A stretch of 41,183 bases of DNA, taken from contig CALCGQ010000101.1 of NCBI GenBank assembly GCA_937901015.1, positions 1 through 41,183 of the forward strand, in the 5' to 3' direction. A program made the position numbers and the translations under genes. Positions 14,435-33,443 of this stretch are shown piece by piece. Origin of the DNA: an uncultured Bacteroidota bacterium. Lineage in GTDB: Bacteria; Bacteroidota; Bacteroidia; Bacteroidales; F082. Each line of letters opens with the position of its first letter. Position 1 is the stretch's first letter. Below the pieces are notes generated by a model. That model made no database searches. It was not told the origin of the DNA and saw nothing but the letters and a program-made list of their open reading frames with translations.

Positions 14435-16213
14435 TTAATAAACCCTGATTGCATCAAACTTACATTTAACTACACATGTTCCACACTGAATACAATCTTC
14501 CTGACGGATAAAGTGTATCTCTTTTCTGCCACCATCAATGGCATCGGTAGGGCATTTCTTAGCACAAATTGTACAACCTGTACATGCATCTGGAATTATT
14601 TCATATGTAAGAAGTTTCGTACATGCTTTCGCTGGACATTTCTTATCGTTAATATGTGCTTCATATTCATGACGGAAGTACTTAATGGTAGTAAGCACAG
14701 GATTTGGAGCTGTTTGTCCAAGGCCACAAAGTGAACTGTCCTTAATCTGATAAGCTAGTTCTTCAAGGCGTTCAATATCTCCTTCTTCACCTTCTCCATC
14801 GGTTATTCTGGTTAGTATTTCAAGCATGCGCTTGGTTCCAATTCTACAGAAAGTACATTTGCCACAAGATTCTTTTTCGGTAAAATCGAGGAAGAATTTT
14901 GCAACATCTATCATACAGGTATCTTCATCCATTACAACCATACCTCCTGAACCCATAATAGCTCCAGTAGCATTTACGGAATCATAATCAACTATGGTGT
15001 CAAGCAGGCTTTCTGGAATACAACCTCCTGAAGGTCCACCCATTTGAACAGCTTTAAACTTCTTATTATTTTGAATGCCACCACCAATTTTAAAAATCAC
15101 ATCTCTGATACTCATTCCCATTGGTACTTCTGCAAGACCAGAACGTGCTATTTTACCAGCAAGAGCAAAAACTTTTGTGCCTTTGCTTTTATCTGTGCCA
15201 TATTTAGCATATTCTTCTGCACCATGAATTACGATCCATGGAATATTTGCCAATGTTTCAACATTATTAATATTTGTTGGTTGTTTCCATAATCCTGATG
15301 CTGCTGGAAATGGCGGGCGTTTTCGAGGCATACCTCTTTCACCTTCGATTGATGCTATCAATGCAGTTTCTTCACCACATACAAAAGCTCCAGCACCTTC
15401 TTTTATATATATATCAAAATTAAAACCATGAATTCCAAGAATATTTTTTCCTAGATAACCTTTTTCTCTGGCTTGTTCAATGGCAATTTGTAATCTAACA
15501 ATTGCAAGCGGATATTCAGCACGGCAATAAATAACTCCTCCGGTTGCCTCAATCGCATAAGCTCCGATAATCATACCTTCTAATACTGAATGAGGATCAC
15601 CTTCTAGTACTGATCTGTCCATAAATGCACCAGGGTCACCTTCATCTGCATTACAGATAATATATTTTTCGTCGGATTTATTATTATTTGCGAATTTCCA
15701 TTTTAACCCGGTTGGGAAACCACCACCACCACGACCTCTTAAACCTGAGTCTATTATGGTTTGAATAACATCAAGGCGGGAAATCTGATGACCTGCAATT
15801 TTTTTAATTGCACGATAGCCATCACGAGCTTCATATTGTTCAATATTTTCAGGATCAATATAACCACAATTTCTAAGGGTGATTTTAACCTGATCATCGA
15901 TAAATGTGTTATCGATGGTTTTGAAATTATTAGAACTTACAACATAATCTTTGATTGGTTTATTTTCTAGAATATGTTGTTCAATTATTTCAGTTGCTTT
16001 TTCTTCATCAATATCACCATACATATATGTACCTGTCTCATCGATAATCTCAACAAGAGGTTCTCTATAACACATCCCAATACATGATGTTTTTTGAAGA
16101 TCAAATGTTAGGTTCTGTTCTTTTTGTATAGTTTCTAATTTATCGAATACCTTTCTGGCACCTGCAGCAATTCCGCATGATCCAAGGCCAACTATTATTT
16201 TTGTGTTTTCCAT
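14435..16213 (-). CDS. NuoF/HydB-type NADH-binding flavoprotein subunit
   Basis: The 592-residue subunit has an N-terminal thioredoxin-like [2Fe-2S] domain (about 1-90, SCGIAAGAR ... SCIGMC). The FMN/NADH-binding NuoF core follows, with SGLRGRGGGGFPTGLKW and CNADEGDPGAFMDR. An SLBB-type segment leads to the N3-type cluster motif ESCGKCTFCRIGTKR. Two C-terminal 4Fe-4S ferredoxin clusters (CTGCTICAKKCP, CIQCGTCVVKC) complete it. This extended layout is that of HydB from trimeric NAD-dependent hydrogenases and related bifurcating enzymes, not of plain respiratory NuoF. The probable role is NADH (or NADPH) oxidation or reduction with electron transfer to the neighbouring multidomain subunit. It starts one base after the NuoE-like stop. 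No membrane subunits of complex I are present here. Confidence 0.92.
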   Translation of the reverse strand: MENTKIIVGLGSCGIAAGARKVFDKLETIQKEQNLTFDLQKTSCIGMCYREPLVEIIDETGTYMYGDIDEEKATEIIEQHILENKPIKDYVVSSNNFKTIDNTFIDDQVKITLRNCGYIDPENIEQYEARDGYRAIKKIAGHQISRLDVIQTIIDSGLRGRGGGGFPTGLKWKFANNNKSDEKYIICNADEGDPGAFMDRSVLEGDPHSVLEGMIIGAYAIEATGGVIYCRAEYPLAIVRLQIAIEQAREKGYLGKNILGIHGFNFDIYIKEGAGAFVCGEETALIASIEGERGMPRKRPPFPAASGLWKQPTNINNVETLANIPWIVIHGAEEYAKYGTDKSKGTKVFALAGKIARSGLAEVPMGMSIRDVIFKIGGGIQNNKKFKAVQMGGPSGGCIPESLLDTIVDYDSVNATGAIMGSGGMVVMDEDTCMIDVAKFFLDFTEKESCGKCTFCRIGTKRMLEILTRITDGEGEEGDIERLEELAYQIKDSSLCGLGQTAPNPVLTTIKYFRHEYEAHINDKKCPAKACTKLLTYEIIPDACTGCTICAKKCPTDAIDGGRKEIHFIRQEDCIQCGTCVVKCKFDAIRVY

Positions 16214-16214
16214 A

Positions 16215-16733
16215 TTAGTTCGATTCTTGTCGTTTGATGTCCCTTACAATTCTTACAGCTTTATCACCGTTAAGCTTTCCATATGTTTCGTCACCAATCA
16301 TCAATACCGGTGCTAGCGAACAACATCCTAAACATGCAACAGACTCAAGTGTGAATAAGCCATCTTCAGTTGTATCACCGTCGTTAACTTTAAGAGAATC
16401 TTGTAGAGCAACAGTTAATTCTTTTGCATTTTGAACATGACATGCAGTACCATGACATACCTTTACAATATGTTTCCCAACAGGTTTTAATCGGAATTGA
16501 GCATAGAAAGTTGCCACTCCATACATATCACTTAATTCAATTTGGGTTTCTTTTGAAACTTTTGTGAATGCGTCCTTTGGAAGGTAGCCATAAATTTCTT
16601 GAATTCCCTGTAGCAAAGGGATCATATTTCCCTTTTTATTCTTGTATTTTTCTATTAGGGAATCAATTGCTGAGAGATCTACTTTTTCCAGTTCAATTTC
16701 TCCAATACCTGTATTGATTCTTGTTATTCGCAT
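16215..16733 (-). CDS. NuoE/HydC-type [2Fe-2S] subunit
   Basis: The 172-residue protein is a 24-kDa-subunit homologue with a helical N-terminus (LLQGIQEIYGYLPKDAFTKVS) and a thioredoxin-fold [2Fe-2S] domain. The cluster ligands are visible as CHGTACH (near residue 95) and CLGCCSLAPVLMI (near 135). In complex I and HydABC-type enzymes it pairs with the NuoF/HydB subunit, and the one-base gap to that gene supports the same partnership here. It is the first gene of a three-gene transcript separated from the upstream Nfn-like unit by a hairpin. No recognisable promoter box was found in the preceding 120 bases. Confidence 0.94.
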   Translation of the reverse strand: MRITRINTGIGEIELEKVDLSAIDSLIEKYKNKKGNMIPLLQGIQEIYGYLPKDAFTKVSKETQIELSDMYGVATFYAQFRLKPVGKHIVKVCHGTACHVQNAKELTVALQDSLKVNDGDTTEDGLFTLESVACLGCCSLAPVLMIGDETYGKLNGDKAVRIVRDIKRQESN

Positions 16734-16854
16734 CGTATTTTCTCTATTAAAAAAATTAGAATGTAAAAATAGGAAATTGCTTAGTGTTAAATCGAAAATC
16801 GAAAATTTATAATGTATCTAAATAGCAGTATTGTCAAGGATTTGATAATAAAAA

Positions 16855-16882
16855 AACCACTTCCGAAAAATTGAAAGTGGTT
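16855..16882 (-). terminator. Probable intrinsic terminator between the Nfn-like and NuoE-like units
   Basis: An 8-bp stem aaccactt / aagtggtt encloses a 12-base loop, with a run of A on the plus strand to its left that gives a U-tract in the minus-strand transcript. It lies 27 bases past the stop of the NfnB-like gene and separates the two redox units. Confidence 0.75.
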
Positions 16883-16908
16883 CTATTAAAGACAGCAATT
16901 TTCACTAA

Positions 16909-18720
16909 TTACGCAGTTGCTTTTCGTTTCTTTTTTGTGGATTTCGATAGCTTTTTATGCATCGCATTGGCAGCTATTCTTCCGGCGCCCATAGCAAGGA
17001 TTACAGTGGCAGAACCAGTAACGATATCTCCTCCTGCATAAACATTGGGAATTGATGTTTCATTGGTTTCTGGATCGGTATCAATATATCCCCATTTATT
17101 TAGGTTCAGATTTGGAGAAGATTGGAATAAAATTGGATTTGGACCATTTCCAATTGCAACAATTGCTAAATCACATTCAACTTCAAAGTTTGATCCTTCT
17201 ATTGGAATTGGTCTTCTTCTACCAGAGCTATCCGGTTCTCCAAGTTCCATTTTTATGCATTCAATGGCTTTGATTCTATTGCTATCAGTTCCAATATATC
17301 TAACAGGGTTATTTAATAATTTGAAAATCACTCCTTCTTCCTCTGCATGATGAATTTCTTCACCACGTGCTGGAAGTTCATGACGTGATCTTCTATAAAT
17401 AATGGTTACTTCTTCAGCTCCCGATCTTTTAGCAGTTCGTGCACAATCCATTGCAACATTGCCACCACCAATAACAGCGACTTTAGTCCCTGAAGGCATT
17501 GGTGTATCATATTCAGGAAATTTGTATGCTTTCATCAAATTCATTCTGGTGAGATATTCGTTTGCCGAGAAAACATTACCAAGGCTTTCCCCATCAATAT
17601 TCATAAATACTGGTAGCCCTGCTCCAACGGCGATAAAAATAGCATCAAAATTTTCAAGTAGCTCATCAAGAGTAAGTAATGGACCAATAACGTGGTTTGT
17701 TTCAATTCGACAACCCATGCTTTGTAGATAGTTTATCTCAAATTGAACAATGGATTTAGGTAATCTGAATTCGGGAATACCATATGTTAATACTCCACCT
17801 GTTTCATGTAATGCCTCAAAAATAGTTACGCCATAACCAAGCTGTCGCATATCGGCAGCAACTGTTAATCCGGCAGGGCCAGAACCAACAACAGCAATAT
17901 GTTTGCCATTTTCTTTAGCGATAACTGGTGCTTTTACCAGATCCATCTTACGCTCATAATCCGCAACAAACCTTTCTAACCTTCCAATTGCAACTGGTTT
18001 ATCCTTTATTCCTACAATGCAATGTTTTTCACACTGATCTTCTTGTGGACAAACTCTACCACAAATTGATGGAAGTATATTTTTTTCTTTGATCTTCTTG
18101 GCAGCTTCATCATATTTTTCATCTGCAATAAGAGCAATAAATGATGGTATATCAATATTTACAGGGCACCCATCAACACATTTCGGGTTTTTACATTGGA
18201 GACATCGGCCTGCTTCCAATAAAGCTAACTCACCTGTGTAGCCATAAGGTACTTCTTGATAATTGCTTACCCTTAGTTTCTGGTCTTGTTCAGGCATATC
18301 TTGCCTAGGAATTTTAAGCTTTAGTTTTCTTTCATCAGCTTTGGTTAATCCATGCCATTCACATCCATATTTCGTACAAATGTAAAATGGCATCAGTTTT
18401 GAAAGCGCAGAAATCATTACTTCACCCACATTGGATCCACAATCACCACATGGTACTTTTTTGTTTACTATACTAGTTTTACATTTTGGACATACTAAAT
18501 CATCTAATACATCGCCTTCTTTAAATGGTAATGATGTTTCTATCTCGAAAACATCAAGGTATGGGCTTAGTTTTAGATCAACATTTTGATTATTGTACTT
18601 AGCATTAAAAAGTATACTTTTCTCCTCTTTTTTTTCAATATTAAAACTGTTGTGGCAATGAGGACAATAAGTATTGAGGTAAGTTTTAAATTTTAAATAT
18701 TTTACATCCTGGTCAAACAT
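16909..18720 (-). CDS. NfnB/GltD-like NAD(P)H oxidoreductase with N-terminal zinc-ribbon module
   Basis: The 603-residue flavoprotein starts with a zinc-ribbon module of about 140 residues (CPHC, CPKC, CGDCGS, ICTKYGCEWHGL). The glutamate-synthase small-subunit fold follows: 4Fe-4S motifs CLQCKNPKCVDGCP (about 172) and CGRVCPQEDQCEKHC, FAD loop GSGPAGL, NADPH loop GGGNVAMDCARTAKRSG, and a final FAD segment GGDIVTGSATVILAMGAGR. With the NfnA-like gene 36 bases upstream, the pair matches NfnAB/SudAB, which couples NADPH with NADH and ferredoxin. The zinc-ribbon module is not part of usual NfnB and is shared with the next-but-one gene. A basic Lys/Arg-rich tail ends the protein. Glutamate synthase small subunit is less likely because there is no gltB nearby. 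Confidence 0.88.
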   Translation of the reverse strand: MFDQDVKYLKFKTYLNTYCPHCHNSFNIEKKEEKSILFNAKYNNQNVDLKLSPYLDVFEIETSLPFKEGDVLDDLVCPKCKTSIVNKKVPCGDCGSNVGEVMISALSKLMPFYICTKYGCEWHGLTKADERKLKLKIPRQDMPEQDQKLRVSNYQEVPYGYTGELALLEAGRCLQCKNPKCVDGCPVNIDIPSFIALIADEKYDEAAKKIKEKNILPSICGRVCPQEDQCEKHCIVGIKDKPVAIGRLERFVADYERKMDLVKAPVIAKENGKHIAVVGSGPAGLTVAADMRQLGYGVTIFEALHETGGVLTYGIPEFRLPKSIVQFEINYLQSMGCRIETNHVIGPLLTLDELLENFDAIFIAVGAGLPVFMNIDGESLGNVFSANEYLTRMNLMKAYKFPEYDTPMPSGTKVAVIGGGNVAMDCARTAKRSGAEEVTIIYRRSRHELPARGEEIHHAEEEGVIFKLLNNPVRYIGTDSNRIKAIECIKMELGEPDSSGRRRPIPIEGSNFEVECDLAIVAIGNGPNPILFQSSPNLNLNKWGYIDTDPETNETSIPNVYAGGDIVTGSATVILAMGAGRIAANAMHKKLSKSTKKKRKATA

Positions 18721-18756
18721 AGTCTTGTAATTTGAAATAAACTTATAGTTATATGG

Positions 18757-19581
18757 TTATCGGATAGAGAATAGTAATGAATCCTTTTCATCTTTTAGAT
18801 AAATCGAATTTCTATTCTGTAATTCGTCGAAATCCACCTGGTGTCCGTCAAAATCAGGTCCATCTACACAGGCAAAGCTGGTTTCATTTCCTACTTTAAC
18901 TCGACAACCTCCGCACATACCTGTTCCGTCAATCATAACAGGATTTAGACTAACTATTGTTGGGACTTTAAATTCTTTTGTAAGTTTAACTACATTCTTC
19001 ATCATGACAATTGGTCCGATGGCATATGTAAGTTTAATATCATATCTTTCACTTAAATAGGTTTTAAGTGGTCCGGTAACAAAACCTTGTTTTCCATAAC
19101 TACCATCATCAGTAGTTATAACCAATTCATCACAAATATTGCGCATTTCATTTTCAAGGATTAGCATTTCCTTGTTTTGTGCACCTATTATTCCAATCAC
19201 ATGATTGCCAGCTTCATGATATGCTTTTGCAACATGGTGAAGTATAGCTACACCGGTGCCTCCACCAACCATTATTACTGTACCCACTTTTTCAACTTCT
19301 GCAGCTCTACCTAAAGGGCCAACCACATCTTTAATTATATCACCTGTATTAAGTGATCTCATAAGAGCAGTTGTTTTACCAACAACCTGAAAAATTACAG
19401 TTATTATGCCGGCAAAACTATCTTTGTCGGCAACTGTTAGCGGAATTCGTTCGCCTGTCTCATTAACTCTTAGAATAATAAATTGGCCTGGTTTAATCTT
19501 TTTTGCAATTTTAGGAGCACTAATGTCAAACCTGATAATAGTGCTTTTGGCCATCTCTTGTTTTCTTACAATTTCGAACAT
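18757..19581 (-). CDS. NfnA/SudB-like ferredoxin:NAD(P) reductase subunit
   Basis: The 274-residue protein has a flavin-binding beta-barrel (IKPGQFIILRVNETGERIPLTVAD), an NAD-binding domain (VIMVGGGTGVAILHHVAKAYHEAGN), and a C-terminal [2Fe-2S] segment (GTGMCGGCRVKVG and FACVDGPDFDGH). This combination defines the NfnA / sulfide dehydrogenase SudB / PyrK-like group, and the RIPLT and DGPDFDGH motifs favour NfnA/SudB over dihydroorotate dehydrogenase PyrK. It forms a heterodimer with the NfnB-like product just downstream. The predicted role is electron exchange between NADH, NADPH and low-potential ferredoxin, possibly by flavin-based bifurcation. It starts with ATG and sits 52 bases after the zinc-ribbon gene. 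Confidence 0.92.
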   Translation of the reverse strand: MFEIVRKQEMAKSTIIRFDISAPKIAKKIKPGQFIILRVNETGERIPLTVADKDSFAGIITVIFQVVGKTTALMRSLNTGDIIKDVVGPLGRAAEVEKVGTVIMVGGGTGVAILHHVAKAYHEAGNHVIGIIGAQNKEMLILENEMRNICDELVITTDDGSYGKQGFVTGPLKTYLSERYDIKLTYAIGPIVMMKNVVKLTKEFKVPTIVSLNPVMIDGTGMCGGCRVKVGNETSFACVDGPDFDGHQVDFDELQNRNSIYLKDEKDSLLFSIR

Positions 19582-22949: not shown

Positions 22950-24695
22950 ATGAATAATACCAACGAAATAGTTGCTTTTAACAGAAGTAGTTTCCTGAAT
23001 GCAGATAAAAAGATCACCTTCATTGGAACGGGTGAATTTGGTGGCAAGGCTAGTGGATTGATCAATATTGCAGAGGTTCTCAGGAATAAAATCGATAAGG
23101 ATAGTTATTCTGGAATTGACATTGATATCCCGGCTATGACTGTAATAAGGTCCGATGTGTTTGATGCATTTATGAAAAGAAATAATCTGTACAGGATTGC
23201 TCTTTCTGATTCTCCTGATGATAGAATTGCACATGCATTTCAAAAAGCCAGTCTACCATTTGAGATACTTGGTGACTTAAGGTCATTAAACTCACAAGTG
23301 GTTACTCCACTCGCAGTTAGGTCTTCTAGTATTCTTGAAGATTCACAGCATGAACCTTTTGCTGGAATCTATGGAACGAAAATGACTCCTAATAATCAAC
23401 CGGATACTACTACAAGATTCAATAAGCTGGTGGAAGCCATCAAGTTTGTATATGCCTCTACATTTTTTAAAGCTGCCAAAGATTACCTTAAGGCAACGAA
23501 GTATAGTACTGAAGATGAGAAAATGTCAGTAATTATTCAGGAAGTTATGGGACAACGTCATGGATCAAGGTACTATCCTGAATTATCGGGTGTTGCCCGT
23601 TCATATAATTACTATGCATTTGGAAATGCTGACCCTGAAGATGGAATTCTCAATCTGGCTTTAGGCCTTGGAAAAACAATTGTCGACGGTGGTCTTTCTT
23701 GGTCAGTATCACCAAAATATCCACGGTCAGAACCTCCATTTGGCGGAATTTCTGATATGTTGAAAAACACACAGAATACATTCTGGTCAGTTAATATGGG
23801 GAAGGCTCCTGCTTATGATCCGGTTAACGAAGCTGAATATTTATTAAACCAAAATATAACTGAGGCAGAGGATGATAATGTACTTAGAAACATCGTCTCT
23901 ACACTCGACTCTAAATCCGGCAGGGTAGTTATGGGAACTGGAAAAACAGGCCCTAGAATTCTAACATTTGCACCAATACTTAGGTCAAGTGAAGTCCCTT
24001 TTGTTAATTTGGTTTCAAAACTTATGTCAGTTTGTGAAGAAGCAGAAGGCGATCCTGTGGAAATAGAGTTTGCTATGACTTTTCATAATGATAAGCCACA
24101 TAGATTGGGATTTCTGCAAGTCAGACCAATGGTGGTTTCCAATGAAGTTGTGGATGTAGTTCGGGAGGAACTTGTAAGTGATACAGTATTATGTTCCTCA
24201 CCGCAAGTACTAGGAAACGGTGTTAATAACCAAATTCGGGATATAATCTACTTAAAGCTTGATAAGTATGATGCTCAAATAACTTATAAAATTGCTGCTG
24301 AGATTGAAAAACTAAACAGCGCTCTGATGAAGGATGGAAAGCCATATTTGCTTTTTGGTTACGGCAGATGGGGAACTTCTGATGCTTGGGCTGGAATACC
24401 TGTTGACTGGGGTCAGATCGCTGGTGCTAAAGTGATAGTGGAAGCACCCTTGGAAGGTATGAATACCGAATTGAGTCAAGGGTCACATTTCTTTCATAAT
24501 GTTACTGGATTTGGAGTTATGTACTTTTCTGTTCCATATTCAGGAGAGTTTCCAATAGATTGGGATTGGTTAAATAACCAGCCATGTGAGAATGAAACTG
24601 AGTTGATCAGGCATATCTGTTTATCAGAACCTCTGGATATCAAAGTTGATGGTAAAACGGGTAATGGTGTCATCAATAAACCATTGAAATCATGA
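22950..24695 (+). CDS. Stand-alone PEP synthase/PPDK N-terminal ATP-grasp protein, short form (paralogue 1)
   Basis: The 581-residue protein has the PEP/pyruvate-binding ATP-grasp domain of PPDK and PEP synthase. It shows GTGEFGGKASGL (about 27-37), the phosphate-binding LAVRSSSILED (about 121-131) with PFAGIYGT, IIQEVMG, LALGLGKTIVDGG, and the closing EIEFAM ... LQVRPM (about 371-393). The phosphohistidine swivel domain and PEP-binding TIM barrel of the true enzymes are absent. Instead residues about 410-581 form a domain shared with the other two paralogues, with GYGRWGTSD (470), SQGSHFFHN (509) and a final IKVDGKTGNG. It probably binds ATP, but acceptor and product are unknown. It follows gdh by 15 bases and overlaps the next gene by four (ATGA). 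Confidence 0.88.
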   Translation: MNNTNEIVAFNRSSFLNADKKITFIGTGEFGGKASGLINIAEVLRNKIDKDSYSGIDIDIPAMTVIRSDVFDAFMKRNNLYRIALSDSPDDRIAHAFQKASLPFEILGDLRSLNSQVVTPLAVRSSSILEDSQHEPFAGIYGTKMTPNNQPDTTTRFNKLVEAIKFVYASTFFKAAKDYLKATKYSTEDEKMSVIIQEVMGQRHGSRYYPELSGVARSYNYYAFGNADPEDGILNLALGLGKTIVDGGLSWSVSPKYPRSEPPFGGISDMLKNTQNTFWSVNMGKAPAYDPVNEAEYLLNQNITEAEDDNVLRNIVSTLDSKSGRVVMGTGKTGPRILTFAPILRSSEVPFVNLVSKLMSVCEEAEGDPVEIEFAMTFHNDKPHRLGFLQVRPMVVSNEVVDVVREELVSDTVLCSSPQVLGNGVNNQIRDIIYLKLDKYDAQITYKIAAEIEKLNSALMKDGKPYLLFGYGRWGTSDAWAGIPVDWGQIAGAKVIVEAPLEGMNTELSQGSHFFHNVTGFGVMYFSVPYSGEFPIDWDWLNNQPCENETELIRHICLSEPLDIKVDGKTGNGVINKPLKS

Positions 24696-27430
24696 GTGAG
24701 AATAAACCACTTGATAGCATAATTGTTGAGTTAAAGGAGAGAGCGAAAGAGCTTAACTGTCTTTACAAAATTCAGGAATTATTAAATAGAACGCCCACAA
24801 TTGATGATCATGTTTGGAATGATATTATTGATTCTATTCCTGCGGGCTTTCAATTTCCTGATATCTGTGTAGTAAGAGTTACAGAAATTGCTGGTGAACA
24901 TATTTCTGATGGTTTTACTGAATCAAAATGGGTATTGAAATCAGATATTCTTGCTCAGGATCAGGTGGTTGGGCATATGCAGGTTTTCTATACAGAGGAA
25001 AGGCCAGACGCTGATGAAGGGCCCTTTTTGAAAGAAGAGCGAAGACTGATTGATAATATTGCTGAAAGGATAGGCTTTCAAATTCTTCATCAAAAGTTAA
25101 AATCTGTTTTTGAAGACAGAAAGAAAACAGATCAAAGAGAAGACTGGTGGGCTGTGCTTGATATGTTAAAGCAAACTGATCCTAAGCTGTTGGTGAGACT
25201 TTCAAGAAAGATGGTTAACTACTTATGTTGGACTGGTGTTAATGAAGCTGATAGTTTGCTGGAGAAGTTTAGTCCAATGGTTAAAAATGAAGGCGGAAAA
25301 TTGCTTTCAGAAATTAATAAACCTTATCAACGTCAATCGGATACTGATATGTTTGTGTTATCCTACCAAATTTTTCAGGTTGCTGGCAAACATATAAAGG
25401 AGAAGGATATTCTTAACCAGATTCAAAAATGGACTAAGGAAGATAAGTCTGACTTCCTCACAGAGATAATGGAAGACTCGGGTTCTACAGTAGCAACAAT
25501 TAGTGCTGCTATTGAAAGGTATCATCATCTAATTCCAAATATGCTTGAACTTACGGAATCTCGTGAAAAGAGCATAAAAGTTGCACTTATCAGAAGGCTA
25601 TTAACAGATCAACAGGACTTTATAGACATTGCCAAGAAAGTTGTTAAAGTGGATAGCTTTAATAAACTGCTTCACAATACCATACACCCTATTAATAGTC
25701 ATGGTCGGCTTGGTGGAAAGAGTTCAGGATTGTTTTTAGCTAAACAGATTTTAGAATCAAATACCTCAAAAAGTGAAACTTTTGATAAGATCAAAACTCC
25801 AAAAACCTGGTATATAACTTCAGATGGATTATTAAACTTCATGACTTATAATAATCTTGAAGAAATTGTAGAGCAGAAATATAAAGAGATTGGAAGAGTA
25901 AGGCAGGAATATCCATATGTAGTTCAGGTTTTTAAGAATTCAACATTTTCTCCGGAAATAATAAAAGGACTGTTGATGGCATTGGATGATTTTGGTGATG
26001 TGCCTCTTGTGGTAAGAAGTTCAAGTTTGCTTGAAGATAGGATAGGAGCAGTATTCGCCGGTAAATATAAGAGTCTGTTCATATCAAATTCAGGAGCAAA
26101 AGAGGAACGACTATCTGAATTAATGGATGCAATTGCCGAAGTATATGCTTCACTTTTTGGACCTGATCCCATAAACTACAGATCACAACATAAACTGTTA
26201 GATTATCAGGAAGAGATGGGGATAATGATTCAGGAAGTTGTGGGAACAAGGGTTGGACCCTACTTTTTTCCATCATTTGCAGGTGTCGCTTTCAGTAGGA
26301 ATGAATATCGTTGGTCATCAAGATTATTACCCGAAGATGGGTTAGTACGTATTGTTCCGGGACTGGGAACCAGAGCTGTTGATAGGTTGAGTAACGACTA
26401 TCCAATTATGCTATCTCCTGGAAAACCTGGATTAAGAGTTAATGTATCAGTTGATGAGATAATTAAATATTCACCAAAATTCATTGATGTAATCAATATT
26501 GAATCAGGTAGCTTTGAGACAATTGAAATTGAGTCCTTATTAAAACGATATGGCAAAGAGTATCCAGCTGTAAGTCGCGTATTATCTGTGTTGAAGGAGA
26601 ATCATATCCAACCTGCACGTCCTCTTGGAATGAACTTTAGTGAAAACACTTTTGTAGTAAATTTTGAAGGTCTTACTAAGCGAACATCATTCTTGAAAGA
26701 GATGATGGATATGATGAAGACACTTGAAGAAGCCTATGGAAATCCAGTTGATATTGAATTCGCACATAATGGTAAAGAGTTTTACTTGCTTCAATGTCGT
26801 TCGCAAAGTTATGTAAATGAAGACAAGCCGGCTGAAATACCAATAACTACTAATACAGAATCAGTATTATTTGCTTCTGATAAATACATAACTAATGGTT
26901 CTGTGCTTGGAATTACACATATTGTATATGTTGACCCTGTGAAATATGATCAGCTACCAAACCATGAATCAATGGTTAGGGTTGGAATAGCGATAGGTAA
27001 GATAAATGATATATTATCTGGTAGTAAATTCATATTAATAGGCCCAGGTCGTTGGGGAAGCCGTGGTGATATTAAATTGGGAGTAAGTGTTACTTATTCA
27101 GAAATAAACAATACTTCGATGCTAGTGGAAGTAGCTAAAAGAAAAAAAGATTATGTGCCTGACGTTTCCTTTGGAACACATTTTTTTCAAGACCTTGTTG
27201 AAGCTAATATCAAGTATTTGCCGCTTTACCCCGATGATGATAATGGGTTCTTTAATGATGATTTCTTTATTAATTCTGAAAATTCATACTCAAGCCTGGT
27301 ACCAGAAATGAAAGATCTTGGAAATGTAATTAAGGTAGTGGATACTTCATTATTAAATAAACATCTAAATGTTTACATGAATTCTATTATTGGTAAAGCT
27401 GTTGGAGTTATTGAAGATGAGGTAGTTTAA
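24692..27430 (+). CDS. PPDK-type ATP-grasp protein with N-terminal GAF-like sensor domain (paralogue 2)
   Basis: This 912-residue paralogue starts with a GAF-like input region (about 1-145). That region begins with a helix, KERAKELNCLYKIQELL, and continues to EGPFLKEERRLIDNIAERIGFQI, a pattern also seen in sensor kinases. A helical linker follows (about 150-335). The ATP-grasp core has GRLGGKSSGL (GGK near 341), LVVRSSSLLEDR (441), MIQEVVG, VPGLGTRAVDR and VDIEFAHNG ... LLQCRSQS. The shared C-terminal domain carries GPGRWGSRGD (784) and GTHFFQDL (828). Its glycine loop lacks the DGG found in paralogues 1 and 3, and its C-terminal end differs, so it is the most diverged copy. No His-swivel or TIM barrel is present. 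It is coupled to paralogue 1 by an ATGA overlap. Function is unknown. Confidence 0.86.
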   Translation: MSENKPLDSIIVELKERAKELNCLYKIQELLNRTPTIDDHVWNDIIDSIPAGFQFPDICVVRVTEIAGEHISDGFTESKWVLKSDILAQDQVVGHMQVFYTEERPDADEGPFLKEERRLIDNIAERIGFQILHQKLKSVFEDRKKTDQREDWWAVLDMLKQTDPKLLVRLSRKMVNYLCWTGVNEADSLLEKFSPMVKNEGGKLLSEINKPYQRQSDTDMFVLSYQIFQVAGKHIKEKDILNQIQKWTKEDKSDFLTEIMEDSGSTVATISAAIERYHHLIPNMLELTESREKSIKVALIRRLLTDQQDFIDIAKKVVKVDSFNKLLHNTIHPINSHGRLGGKSSGLFLAKQILESNTSKSETFDKIKTPKTWYITSDGLLNFMTYNNLEEIVEQKYKEIGRVRQEYPYVVQVFKNSTFSPEIIKGLLMALDDFGDVPLVVRSSSLLEDRIGAVFAGKYKSLFISNSGAKEERLSELMDAIAEVYASLFGPDPINYRSQHKLLDYQEEMGIMIQEVVGTRVGPYFFPSFAGVAFSRNEYRWSSRLLPEDGLVRIVPGLGTRAVDRLSNDYPIMLSPGKPGLRVNVSVDEIIKYSPKFIDVINIESGSFETIEIESLLKRYGKEYPAVSRVLSVLKENHIQPARPLGMNFSENTFVVNFEGLTKRTSFLKEMMDMMKTLEEAYGNPVDIEFAHNGKEFYLLQCRSQSYVNEDKPAEIPITTNTESVLFASDKYITNGSVLGITHIVYVDPVKYDQLPNHESMVRVGIAIGKINDILSGSKFILIGPGRWGSRGDIKLGVSVTYSEINNTSMLVEVAKRKKDYVPDVSFGTHFFQDLVEANIKYLPLYPDDDNGFFNDDFFINSENSYSSLVPEMKDLGNVIKVVDTSLLNKHLNVYMNSIIGKAVGVIEDEVV

Positions 27431-27490
27431 TAGCCTTTTTCACATAACTTGAATGCTCACTATTTCAGTTTTTTTATCATATATTTTTCA

Positions 27491-27498
27491 TAAATTTG
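27491..27498 (+). promoter_or_regulatory. Putative -7 promoter box for the histidine kinase gene
   Basis: TAAATTTG fits TAnnTTTG. It lies 9 bases before the ATG at 27508 and 27 before the ATG at 27526. The start with the better signal peptide (27526) leaves a short but normal leader. The ten bases TAAATTTGTA recur in front of the double-receiver gene. Confidence 0.5.
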
Positions 27499-27525
27499 TA
27501 GAATAGCATGTGCTTAACTTTTAAT

Positions 27526-30458: not shown

Positions 30459-33443
30459 ATGTTCTCTTCGAAAGCAGATATATTAGACCAGGATTTTTAT
30501 TTCAACGATACTCCGTTTACACACCTTATGAAAAGGAGGATTTATCAGGTATTACTTATTTCGAGTGTGTATGATGCGTTTATGTTGGAAGAAGATGGCC
30601 GAATTGATGAGCAGATTTTTCACGAATATACCTCGTTGAATTTAAGGTATCCACCTCAGTTTCTCAAAGCAACCAATGAAGAAGAAGCATTACGGATATT
30701 GGAGACTGAAAAAATAGATCTTGTTATTTCAATGCTGAGTGCTGAAAAAGAATCAACATTTGAGTTTACGGATCATATTAAGGATGAATACCCCGAAATT
30801 CCAATTGTTATGCTTACACCATTTTCACGGGAGGTAAGTTTAAAGTTAGAGAAGATTGATTTAAGGTCAATTGATTATATTTTTAGCTGGCTTGGAAATG
30901 CGGATATACTGCTTGCTATCATCAAGTTAATTGAGGATAGTATGAATGTGGATAATGATGTTGAAGAGGTAGGTGTACAAACAATTATACTTGTTGAAGA
31001 TAATATCAGGTTTTACTCAAGCTACCTTCCAATAATATATAAGATAATATTTAAGCAATCAAAGTCATTCGTTAATGAAGGTTTGAATGAGCATCAAAGA
31101 ATGATGCGGTTAAGGGGAAGGCCAAAAATCCTACTTGCCACAAACTTCGAAGATGCATATGGGTTTTATGAGAAGTATAAAAAGAACCTTCTTGGAGTAG
31201 TTTCTGATATTACCTATTCGCGAAATGGTGTTCTTGATAAAAACGCAGGGTTTGAGCTGTCAGCCATTATTAAGCGTGATAATCCCTATACACCAGTGCT
31301 ATTACAATCATCTGAAAGAATAAATTATAAAAGGGCTAAAGAACTAAGAGTTGGTTTTCTGGATAAATATTCCAAAACACTAATTTTTGATTTGAGAGAG
31401 TTTATTAAAGAATATTTTGCTTTTGGTGATTTTGTATTTAAAGATCCATTGCTTGGTATTGTTGTAGCTAGAGCTACTGACCTTAAAGACTTACAAGATA
31501 AAATATTTAATATTCCATCGAATTCCCTTCGGTACCATATACAACGTAACCACTTTAGTAAATGGTTGCGGGCAAGAGCATTGTTTCCATTGGCAGAATT
31601 GTTCAGATATTTTAATACCGATGATTTCAATGATTTAAGTGAAATCAGACAATTTATATACAATGCCATCTCACAATTTAGGATATCAAAGGCACGAGGT
31701 GTAATATCTCAGTTTAACAGGAAGACTTTTGATAAGTATTTCAGTATGAGTAGGATTGGTCAGGGATCCATCGGTGGTAAAGCACGAGGGTTAGCCTTTC
31801 TTGACTCATTGATTAAGCGTAATAACTTATATACCTATTTTGATAAGGTTGAAATTGCTATTCCGAAAACTGTGGTTGTGGGAACAGATATTTTTGATGA
31901 ATTCATGGATGAAAACAAACTTCATCCAATAGCTCTTTCAGATTCTATTACAGATAATGAGATATTGGATGCATTCCTCAAAGCTCAATTACCCGCTTCT
32001 GTTCGCGAGGATATGTATAAGATAGCAAGTTCCATTGAAAGTCCATTGGCAATTAGATCTTCCAGTTTGCTAGAGGATTCACATTATCAGCCCTTTGCAG
32101 GCATCTATAATACCTATATGATTCCTTACAGAAGTGGTGATCCGGATAAAATGTATGATATGATGGTTTCTGCAATAAAAGCAGTTTACGCATCTGCTTA
32201 CTATACGGATAGTAAGGCATACATGGAAGCAACTTCGAATGTTATTGATGAGGAGAAGATGGCAATTGTGATTCAGGAAGTTGTTGGTAGTACCTATGGT
32301 GATAGATATTATCCTACTATTTCAGGAGTAGGAAGATCGATCGATTATTATCCTTTGGAGCCTGGTATCCCAGAAGATGGAACAGTCAGTTTGGCCTTTG
32401 GCCTTGGAAAGTATGTTGTTGATGGAGGTTTATCCCTAAGGTTTTGCCCAAAATATCCTAAAAATATACTTCAGACATCTACTCCAGAAATGGCACTTAG
32501 AGAGACTCAAAAATACTTTTTTGCGCTTGATATGAGTGATAATGATTTTGATATCCAGCCCAATGATGGTGCTTGCTTGTTGAAGCTTAAAATAAAAGAA
32601 GCAGAAAAGGATGGTTCCATAAAACCTGTTGCTTCAACATTTGTTATGCATGATAATGTTGTGAGGGATGGATATAACTATCCTGGTAAAAAGTTGATTA
32701 CATTCTCAAATATTCTTAAGCACAATACTTTTCCACTGGCAGAGATTCTTGATCGAATTTTAAAACTTGGTGAGGAAGAAATGGGAAATCCAGTTGAAAT
32801 CGAATTTGCCATTGATTTGAATATTCAAAAGGATGAAAAAGTCGCATTAAAATTATTACAAATAAGACCAGTAGCCTCAAAGGATGAAAGTGTTAATATT
32901 GAGGAGGAAGAAATCGATAATTCTGATACTATTTTGGTTTCACGATCTGCCTTAGGGAATGGAATAATCGATGATATTTTCGATATTGTTTACGTTAGAC
33001 CAGAAAACTTTGATGCTTCAAAAACAAATGATATTGTTAATTATATAGATGCATTGAATAAGGTGTTTGTTGAAGAAGATCGAAACTATATACTAGTTGG
33101 TCCCGGACGCTGGGGATCAAGTGATCCTTGGTTAGGAATTCCGGTTAATTGGTCACAGATATCAGCGGCACGGTTGATTGTTGAATCCGGACTCGAAGAT
33201 TACAGAATAGATCCAAGTCAGGGCACTCACTTTTTCCAAAATCTAACATCCTTCAGAGTAGGGTATTTTACTATCAATCCGTTTATTAGGGATGGATCAT
33301 ATGATAATGACTTTTTGGATAAGCAACCCGCTATCTTTGAGAATGAATTCGTTCGTCATGTTAGGTTTGAAAATAATCTTACAATAAAAATTGATGGTAA
33401 GAAAAACTTAGGAATGGTAACAAAACCTAAGTTGCAGATTTAG
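30459..33443 (+). CDS. Double-receiver response regulator fused to PPDK-type ATP-grasp domain (paralogue 3)
   Basis: The 994-residue protein has two receiver-like domains before an ATP-grasp enzyme core. The first (about 28-165) lacks clear acidic-pocket and phospho-acceptor residues and looks degenerate. The second (about 172-325) shows the acidic pair in ILVEDN (E180, D181), a likely phospho-acceptor in VVSDITY (D250), LLQSS (284-285) and the conserved lysine in FLDKYSK (K303). The ATP-grasp core follows: GSIGGKARGL (GGK near 439), LAIRSSSLLEDS (532), VIQEVVG, LAFGLGKYVVDGG and VEIEFAID ... LLQIRPV. The shared C-terminal domain has GPGRWGSSDPW (881), SQGTHFFQNL (922) and a final IKIDGKKNLG as in paralogue 1. 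Phosphorylation by the upstream kinase probably controls the ATP-grasp activity. Its product is unknown. Confidence 0.88.
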   Translation: MFSSKADILDQDFYFNDTPFTHLMKRRIYQVLLISSVYDAFMLEEDGRIDEQIFHEYTSLNLRYPPQFLKATNEEEALRILETEKIDLVISMLSAEKESTFEFTDHIKDEYPEIPIVMLTPFSREVSLKLEKIDLRSIDYIFSWLGNADILLAIIKLIEDSMNVDNDVEEVGVQTIILVEDNIRFYSSYLPIIYKIIFKQSKSFVNEGLNEHQRMMRLRGRPKILLATNFEDAYGFYEKYKKNLLGVVSDITYSRNGVLDKNAGFELSAIIKRDNPYTPVLLQSSERINYKRAKELRVGFLDKYSKTLIFDLREFIKEYFAFGDFVFKDPLLGIVVARATDLKDLQDKIFNIPSNSLRYHIQRNHFSKWLRARALFPLAELFRYFNTDDFNDLSEIRQFIYNAISQFRISKARGVISQFNRKTFDKYFSMSRIGQGSIGGKARGLAFLDSLIKRNNLYTYFDKVEIAIPKTVVVGTDIFDEFMDENKLHPIALSDSITDNEILDAFLKAQLPASVREDMYKIASSIESPLAIRSSSLLEDSHYQPFAGIYNTYMIPYRSGDPDKMYDMMVSAIKAVYASAYYTDSKAYMEATSNVIDEEKMAIVIQEVVGSTYGDRYYPTISGVGRSIDYYPLEPGIPEDGTVSLAFGLGKYVVDGGLSLRFCPKYPKNILQTSTPEMALRETQKYFFALDMSDNDFDIQPNDGACLLKLKIKEAEKDGSIKPVASTFVMHDNVVRDGYNYPGKKLITFSNILKHNTFPLAEILDRILKLGEEEMGNPVEIEFAIDLNIQKDEKVALKLLQIRPVASKDESVNIEEEEIDNSDTILVSRSALGNGIIDDIFDIVYVRPENFDASKTNDIVNYIDALNKVFVEEDRNYILVGPGRWGSSDPWLGIPVNWSQISAARLIVESGLEDYRIDPSQGTHFFQNLTSFRVGYFTINPFIRDGSYDNDFLDKQPAIFENEFVRHVRFENNLTIKIDGKKNLGMVTKPKLQI

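Follow-up and report, generated by a model that had tools for sequence, protein, structure and literature searches.

Proteins with a PPDK_N ATP-grasp domain encoded beside glutamate dehydrogenase genes in many phyla are candidate regulators of the enzyme

The window, by which we mean the whole 41,183-nucleotide stretch of DNA analysed here, comes from the genome of an uncultured Bacteroidota bacterium that was assembled into 411 contigs and is approximately 85% complete. It carries a glutamate dehydrogenase (GDH) gene directly upstream of the first of three genes, here called P1, P2 and P3, which are intact open reading frames on the plus strand encoding one PPDK_N ATP-grasp domain each (PF01326: 126, 196 and 152 bits, respectively, with a cut-off of 27 bits; Table 1). 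The reading frames of P1 and P2 share 4 bp (ATGA, 24692-24695). The histidine kinase gene between P2 and P3 occupies that position in the window's own genus only and was therefore ruled out as a member of the conserved module, although its product is a possible partner of the receivers of the adjoining P3. Just upstream of the GDH array, on the opposite strand, lie genes resembling nuoF, gltA (NADPH-dependent glutamate synthase) and DHODB (14435-19581), a hint of a nitrogen/redox neighbourhood.

Table 1. Coordinates of the features at the GDH array and P3, with examples of the phosphoesterase gene found beside P2 in relatives. Positions are those of the window unless a locus is named.
Feature	Position	Strand	Evidence or remark
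gdhA, glutamate dehydrogenase, 428 aa	21648..22934	+	PF00208 224 bits, PF02812 182 bits; opens the conserved gdhA-P1-P2 array
P1, 581 aa: PPDK_N ATP-grasp (residues 30-400) and C-terminal GRWG/GSHFF domain, input module absent	22950..24695	+	
P2, 912 aa: GAF-fold N-terminus, helical region, PPDK_N, GRWG/GTHFF domain; C-terminal NTase domain of orthologues missing	24692..27430	+	
P2 GAF-like domain, residues 1 to ~145	24692..25126	+	orthologue model, Foldseek, identity to hybrid kinase
P2 PPDK_N ATP-grasp region, residues 336-712	25697..26827	+	PF01326 196 bits; Foldseek
GLGTRAVDR, signature of the P2 subfamily, residues 557-565	26360..26386	+	near-invariant in 110 orthologues
P2 C-terminal domain with invariant GPGRWGS and SFGTHFF	26828..27427	+	common to P1, P3 and P4
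Gap of 77 bp, at the place where relatives encode the remainder of P2, with its NTase domain, and a metallophosphoesterase	27431..27507	.	compare L071:10090-11437
TPR-PAS-PAS sensor histidine kinase, between P2 and P3	27508..30375	+	
P3, 994 aa: two receivers, DUF5752-like linker, PPDK_N, C-terminal GRWG/GTHFF domain	30459..33443	+	
P3 receiver 1	30531..30938	+	Pfam-scored; phospho-acceptor Asp position not conserved
P3 receiver 2	30972..31412	+	no Pfam score; conserves the acidic pair, Asp and Lys
Metallophosphoesterase genes of relatives (examples)	L111:8838-9701; L071:10565-11437 and similar		directly 3' of P2

The initial annotation of this DNA described the three ATP-grasp paralogues as having a different input module each, and this description stands: P1 has none, P2 has an N-terminus with a GAF fold and P3 has two receivers. 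A Pfam search returned zero matches for residues 1 to ~145 of P2. The GAF assignment comes instead from the model of a P2 orthologue (mean pLDDT 83), in which the N-terminus folds as a GAF domain and for which Foldseek listed NifA, phytochrome and the GAF structure 3K2N at a probability of ~1.0 but with weak E-values of 0.02-0.3. In addition, residues 9-139 of the window's P2 share 40% identity with the N-terminus of a hybrid histidine kinase encoded in the same genome (L108). When the receivers of P3 were searched for the Asp and Lys residues, both were found in receiver 2 only, the receiver scored by Pfam being degenerate. A fourth paralogue of 1134 aa, P4, is encoded on contig C310 (2579-5980; genome G000, locus L105) and has an extra N-terminal region with weak receiver and DUF5752 signals.

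The ATP-grasp domain is followed in P1-P4 by a common region of ~180-200 residues in which the motifs GRWG and G(S/T)HFF are near-invariant. Its place is that of the His and PEP domains in PPDK and PEP synthase. Neither the swivelling His domain (PF00391) nor the PEP/pyruvate TIM-barrel (PF02896) was matched by Pfam in P1-P4; the former is present in the genome's own, apparently canonical PPDK on contig C274 and in a further PPDK_N protein on contig C41, and the latter gives 270 bits in the C274 PPDK. Because two of the three domains are missing, the idea that P1-P3 have the activity of PEP synthase or PPDK was rejected. Nor is the C-terminal domain a degenerate swivelling domain, as no such match was obtained for the domain alone. 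Folded by itself, the P2 domain gave a confident model (pLDDT 90.5, pTM 0.90), yet the PDB held nothing similar at E<=0.001 (best TM-score among the matches listed, 0.36), so that it possibly represents an undescribed fold. We regard it, by inference, as an effector or acceptor domain.

At the position of the glycine loop P2 reads GLGTRAVDR, compared with GLGKTIVDGG in P1 and GLGKYVVDGG in P3 (both GLGKxxVDGG), which bears out the sequence reading of the initial annotation. The divergence that it saw there in the middle copy does not hold as a sign of catalytic decay, and loss of catalysis was rejected, since the loop is conserved across 110 P2 orthologues (exact in 103, with one residue changed in 3 and as GTRAVDR in 4 others missed by the pattern) and the ATP residues are intact. 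The loop of E. coli PEP synthase (PpsA) is GLGE, so neither GLGK nor GLGT can be called canonical. In an alignment that includes PpsA and the PPDK of the same genome, the Lys of GGK, the Arg of (V/I)RSS, the Glu of E(F/Y)A and the Gln of LQ (LLQ) are aligned and retained in P1-P4; the VRS segment of the genome's PPDK falls in a gapped block while the rest aligns, and the Arg column therefore rests on PpsA. We take these residues to correspond to the PPDK ATP contacts K22, R92, E323 and Q335.

The initial annotation had proposed that its view of diverged roles would fail if the ATP-contacting residues were equally conserved and the paralogues were recent duplicates. The tested residues are indeed equally conserved, whereas recent duplication is rejected by a tree built on the ATP-grasp and C-terminal regions: P1 and P3 form a clade with support of 1.0, P4 joins it at 0.92, and P2 forms a separate clade, also with support of 1.0. 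The split between P1 and P2 is old, both being present across many phyla, and P1 orthologues are 42-59% identical across phyla. The absence from P2 of the ending 'IK(V/I)DGK' of P1 and P3 was likewise correctly noted, except that a homologous segment, LNVYMNSIIGKAVGVIED, stands in its place; the different C-terminus of P2 is the product of this ancestral difference and of the loss of a further domain in the window's lineage.

That domain is a nucleotidyltransferase (NTase). Most P2 orthologues are ~1,060 aa long, and their extra 150 C-terminal residues match PF01909 (34.6 bits in a full-length P2, cut-off 21) and, in a full-length orthologue, the folds of 2rff, MntA and HI0073. The motif GS-x(7-12)-(S/T)-D-x-D was found in 86 of 109 P2 orthologues. 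The NTase profile had no match in the window's P2, whose reading frame stops at residue 912, just short of the domain. Within the genus the NTase is retained in one species (G317, L071) and missing in three others as well as in the window. The P2 studied here is thus not a decayed copy but a form of ancient origin, shortened locally, which elsewhere bears an NTase.

A second gene appears to share the fate of the NTase. The 3' side of P2 is adjoined, usually convergently, by a gene for a calcineurin-like metallophosphoesterase of 287 aa (PF00149), which was found at 48 of the 85 distinct loci with an NTase and at none of the 12 without one (Fisher p=1.3e-4, a value that ignores relatedness among loci that are not independent). 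As the two are adjacent, a single deletion could take both, and with non-independent loci the association is suggestive only. A search for remnants of either one 3' of P2 found none in the 77-bp gap, and the phosphoesterase was not found in the window's 85%-complete genome.

The gene neighbourhood provides the main evidence on function. From a scan of 85,000 species' genomes the best 80 of at least 556 P2 loci were taken, and together with the Bacteroidota set they gave 106 distinct P2 genes. In 80 of them a GDH gene is found on the same strand no more than two genes upstream; 14 have none, while the contigs of the other 12 leave no room (80/94 where there is room). P1 immediately precedes P2 in 64 of the 106, the pairs overlap in 43 of 67 cases and the median distance between them is -4 bp; the median gaps from GDH are 62 bp to P1 and 96 bp to P2. 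The linkage of P1 and P2 to GDH is strong, and the two proteins very probably act together. Judged by record titles, many of which are MAG labels, and within the best 80 of at least 556 loci plus the Bacteroidota set, the GDH-linked P2 loci span ~19 phylum-level groups: Bacteroidota, Ignavibacteria, Calditrichota, Delongbacteria, Zixibacteria, Fermentibacteria, Acidobacteriota, Planctomycetota, Neomarinimicrobiota, Spirochaetota, Aminicenantes, Bacillota, Chloroflexota, Gemmatimonadota, Chitinispirillaceae, Deltaproteobacteria, Cloacimonetes, Celaenobacter and Oligosphaera. A search of viral contigs found no relative, and viral carriage was rejected.

P3 lies apart from P1 and P2 in many genomes and has a GDH linkage of its own, with a GDH gene within two genes at 40 of 67 P3 loci and none at the other 27. 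These GDHs are of another type than the one linked to P1 and P2: mostly they are family-I enzymes of 444-453 aa, similar to the protein annotated as NADP-GDH in Parabacteroides distasonis. In that species gdhA is divergent from a gene annotated 'PEP/pyruvate-binding domain-containing protein', Phocaeicola massiliensis has a similar linkage, and in 16 further Bacteroidaceae genomes P3 is often, though not always, within two genes of a family-I gdh. In other Bacteroidales P4 is often in tandem with P3 (L238-L240). At three loci (L248, L252 and L254) GDH and P3 genes alternate in the order GDH-P3-GDH-P3-GDH, so that distinct PPDK_N paralogues accompany distinct GDH paralogues. No argument for a dedicated role is stronger than this pairing of multiple PPDK_N paralogues with a GDH paralogue each. 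In one Bacteroidaceae genome P3 is split into two frames of 837 and 209 aa, with a TAG inside the second piece (G624:C74:19487-22449).

An older observation in Bacteroides may bear on P3. According to the title of a 1996 report by Baggio and Morrison, one or more trans-acting genes downstream of gdhA in Bacteroides thetaiotaomicron reportedly affect GDH activity, and its abstract is said to describe a 3-kb downstream segment that restored GDH activity in E. coli. The length of P3 is ~3 kb, and in two Bacteroidaceae genomes (L265, L266) it lies directly downstream of gdh in convergent orientation. At another locus (L292) the order is GDH2, a catalase-like gene, P3 and GDH, with the second gdh divergent from P3; this order may correspond to the B. 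thetaiotaomicron locus, where the gdh genes presumably flank BT_1971. The product of BT_1971 is a catalase (PMC12596196, PMC4595636). Given that the position of P3 relative to gdh varies in Bacteroidaceae, its identity with the 1996 factor is unproven, and we offer it as a lead and not as a demonstration.

On the basis of gene linkage, P1, P2 and P3 are probably dedicated partners of GDH, with direct action on the enzyme being putative. The stronger statement, that they are dedicated regulators of GDH probably working through ATP-dependent modification, we consider about evenly balanced, and a covalent modification of GDH is proposed tentatively. This best explanation has its counterpoint: ~15% of the P2 loci with sufficient room have no GDH in range, and linkage between genes does not in itself amount to direct action. 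In the mechanism envisaged, P2 would sense a small-molecule signal through its GAF domain and P3 phosphorylation through its receivers, while P1 would receive its signal through its partner P2. The ATP-grasp domain would bind, and probably spend, ATP, and the GRWG/GTHFF domain would relay the effect to GDH by modification or by binding, thereby setting GDH activity. In most lineages the NTase of P2, often together with the neighbouring metallophosphoesterase, may contribute a second chemistry, possibly a nucleotide mark that is written and erased; the window's lineage has lost both. A fuller version, a widespread control system in which the C-terminal domain would be a new catalytic one that covalently modifies GDH on GAF or receiver input, while the NTase and phosphoesterase would add a reversible second layer, much as GlnE/GlnD control glutamine synthetase, appears rather unlikely, and that these two form a writer-eraser pair is more doubtful still.

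The same proteins could regulate GDH without covalent chemistry, the ATP-grasp domain sensing adenylates (energy charge) and the C-terminal domain binding GDH hexamers; GDH would then receive neither a phosphoryl nor a nucleotidyl group. This would suit the missing swivelling phosphohistidine domain of P1-P4, the dispensability of the NTase, which is lost or degenerate at 12 distinct loci with room, and the shortness of P1 and its want of an input module. However, the full conservation of the tested ATP-site residues and the exact polar motifs GRWG and G(S/T)HFF look catalytic, and an NTase fused to P2 with a phosphoesterase next door suggests chemistry, so that we judge non-covalent control a serious but unlikely alternative.

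ATP-grasp enzymes are commonly ligases, and rifampin phosphotransferase and PigC/RedH are examples of relatives that modify small molecules. P1-P3 might accordingly be metabolic enzymes, ATP-dependent synthetases or ligases for one of the compounds that GDH consumes or makes (glutamate, 2-oxoglutarate or ammonia) and co-transcribed with it for pathway reasons. Such a role is improbable: receiver and GAF inputs are typical of signalling, genomes encode several of these paralogues, every one next to a GDH paralogue, and P1-P4 are missing the swivelling His domain that the small-molecule relatives presumably keep. Least probable by far is a hetero-oligomer of all three paralogues with a non-catalytic, regulatory middle copy, for, although P1 and P2 overlap and co-occur and all three genes are together in the window, the P2 loop is a conserved subfamily signature with ATP residues intact, 42 of the 106 P2 genes have no P1 immediately upstream and P3 is often located elsewhere; of the hetero-oligomer raised in the initial annotation, what remains reasonable is an association of P1 with P2, which their overlap and adjacency favour, and it is weak for P3.

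In Bacteroidota, as in many other anaerobes, GDH is a main route by which ammonia enters metabolism. P1-P3, as probable partners of this enzyme, belong to a family that is uncharacterised and widely conserved: the gdhA-P1-P2 array, found in ~19 phylum-level groups and annotated merely as 'PEP/pyruvate-binding domain-containing protein', points to a dedicated GDH regulator, and the P3 family would provide a concrete candidate for the trans-acting factor of B. thetaiotaomicron GdhA. Our literature searches found no account of the link to GDH and, besides the 1996 Bacteroides report, no comparable dedicated protein regulator of GDH.

Compared with known systems, P1-P3 share the PPDK_N ATP-grasp of PEP synthase and PPDK by sequence and by fold (Foldseek probability 1.00), with the Lys, Arg, Glu and Gln of the ATP site, but differ in their C-terminal domain, in having GLGK or GLGTRAVDR in place of GLGE, and in the GAF domain or receivers at the N-terminus. 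The closest ATP-grasp structures in Foldseek were those of Rph (5hv3 and 5hv1), and Rph and PigC/RedH were also matched by family models; these enzymes carry the swivelling His domain and modify antibiotics or pyrroles, neither of which features was found in P1-P4. Full-length P2 has the GS..SDxD motif, PF01909 and the fold in common with MNT/Polbeta NTases (MntA of MntA-HepT, HI0073). The NTase of P2 orthologues, however, is fused to an ATP-grasp domain beside gdhA, whereas MntA is encoded beside a HEPN protein, and the P2 of the window is without it. GlnE and GlnD are dedicated, nucleotidyltransferase-bearing regulators in the control of glutamine synthetase and PII. They offer a working analogy for P2, in which the homology tested ends at the superfamily motif, the architecture is instead built on an ATP-grasp domain, and the target would be GDH.
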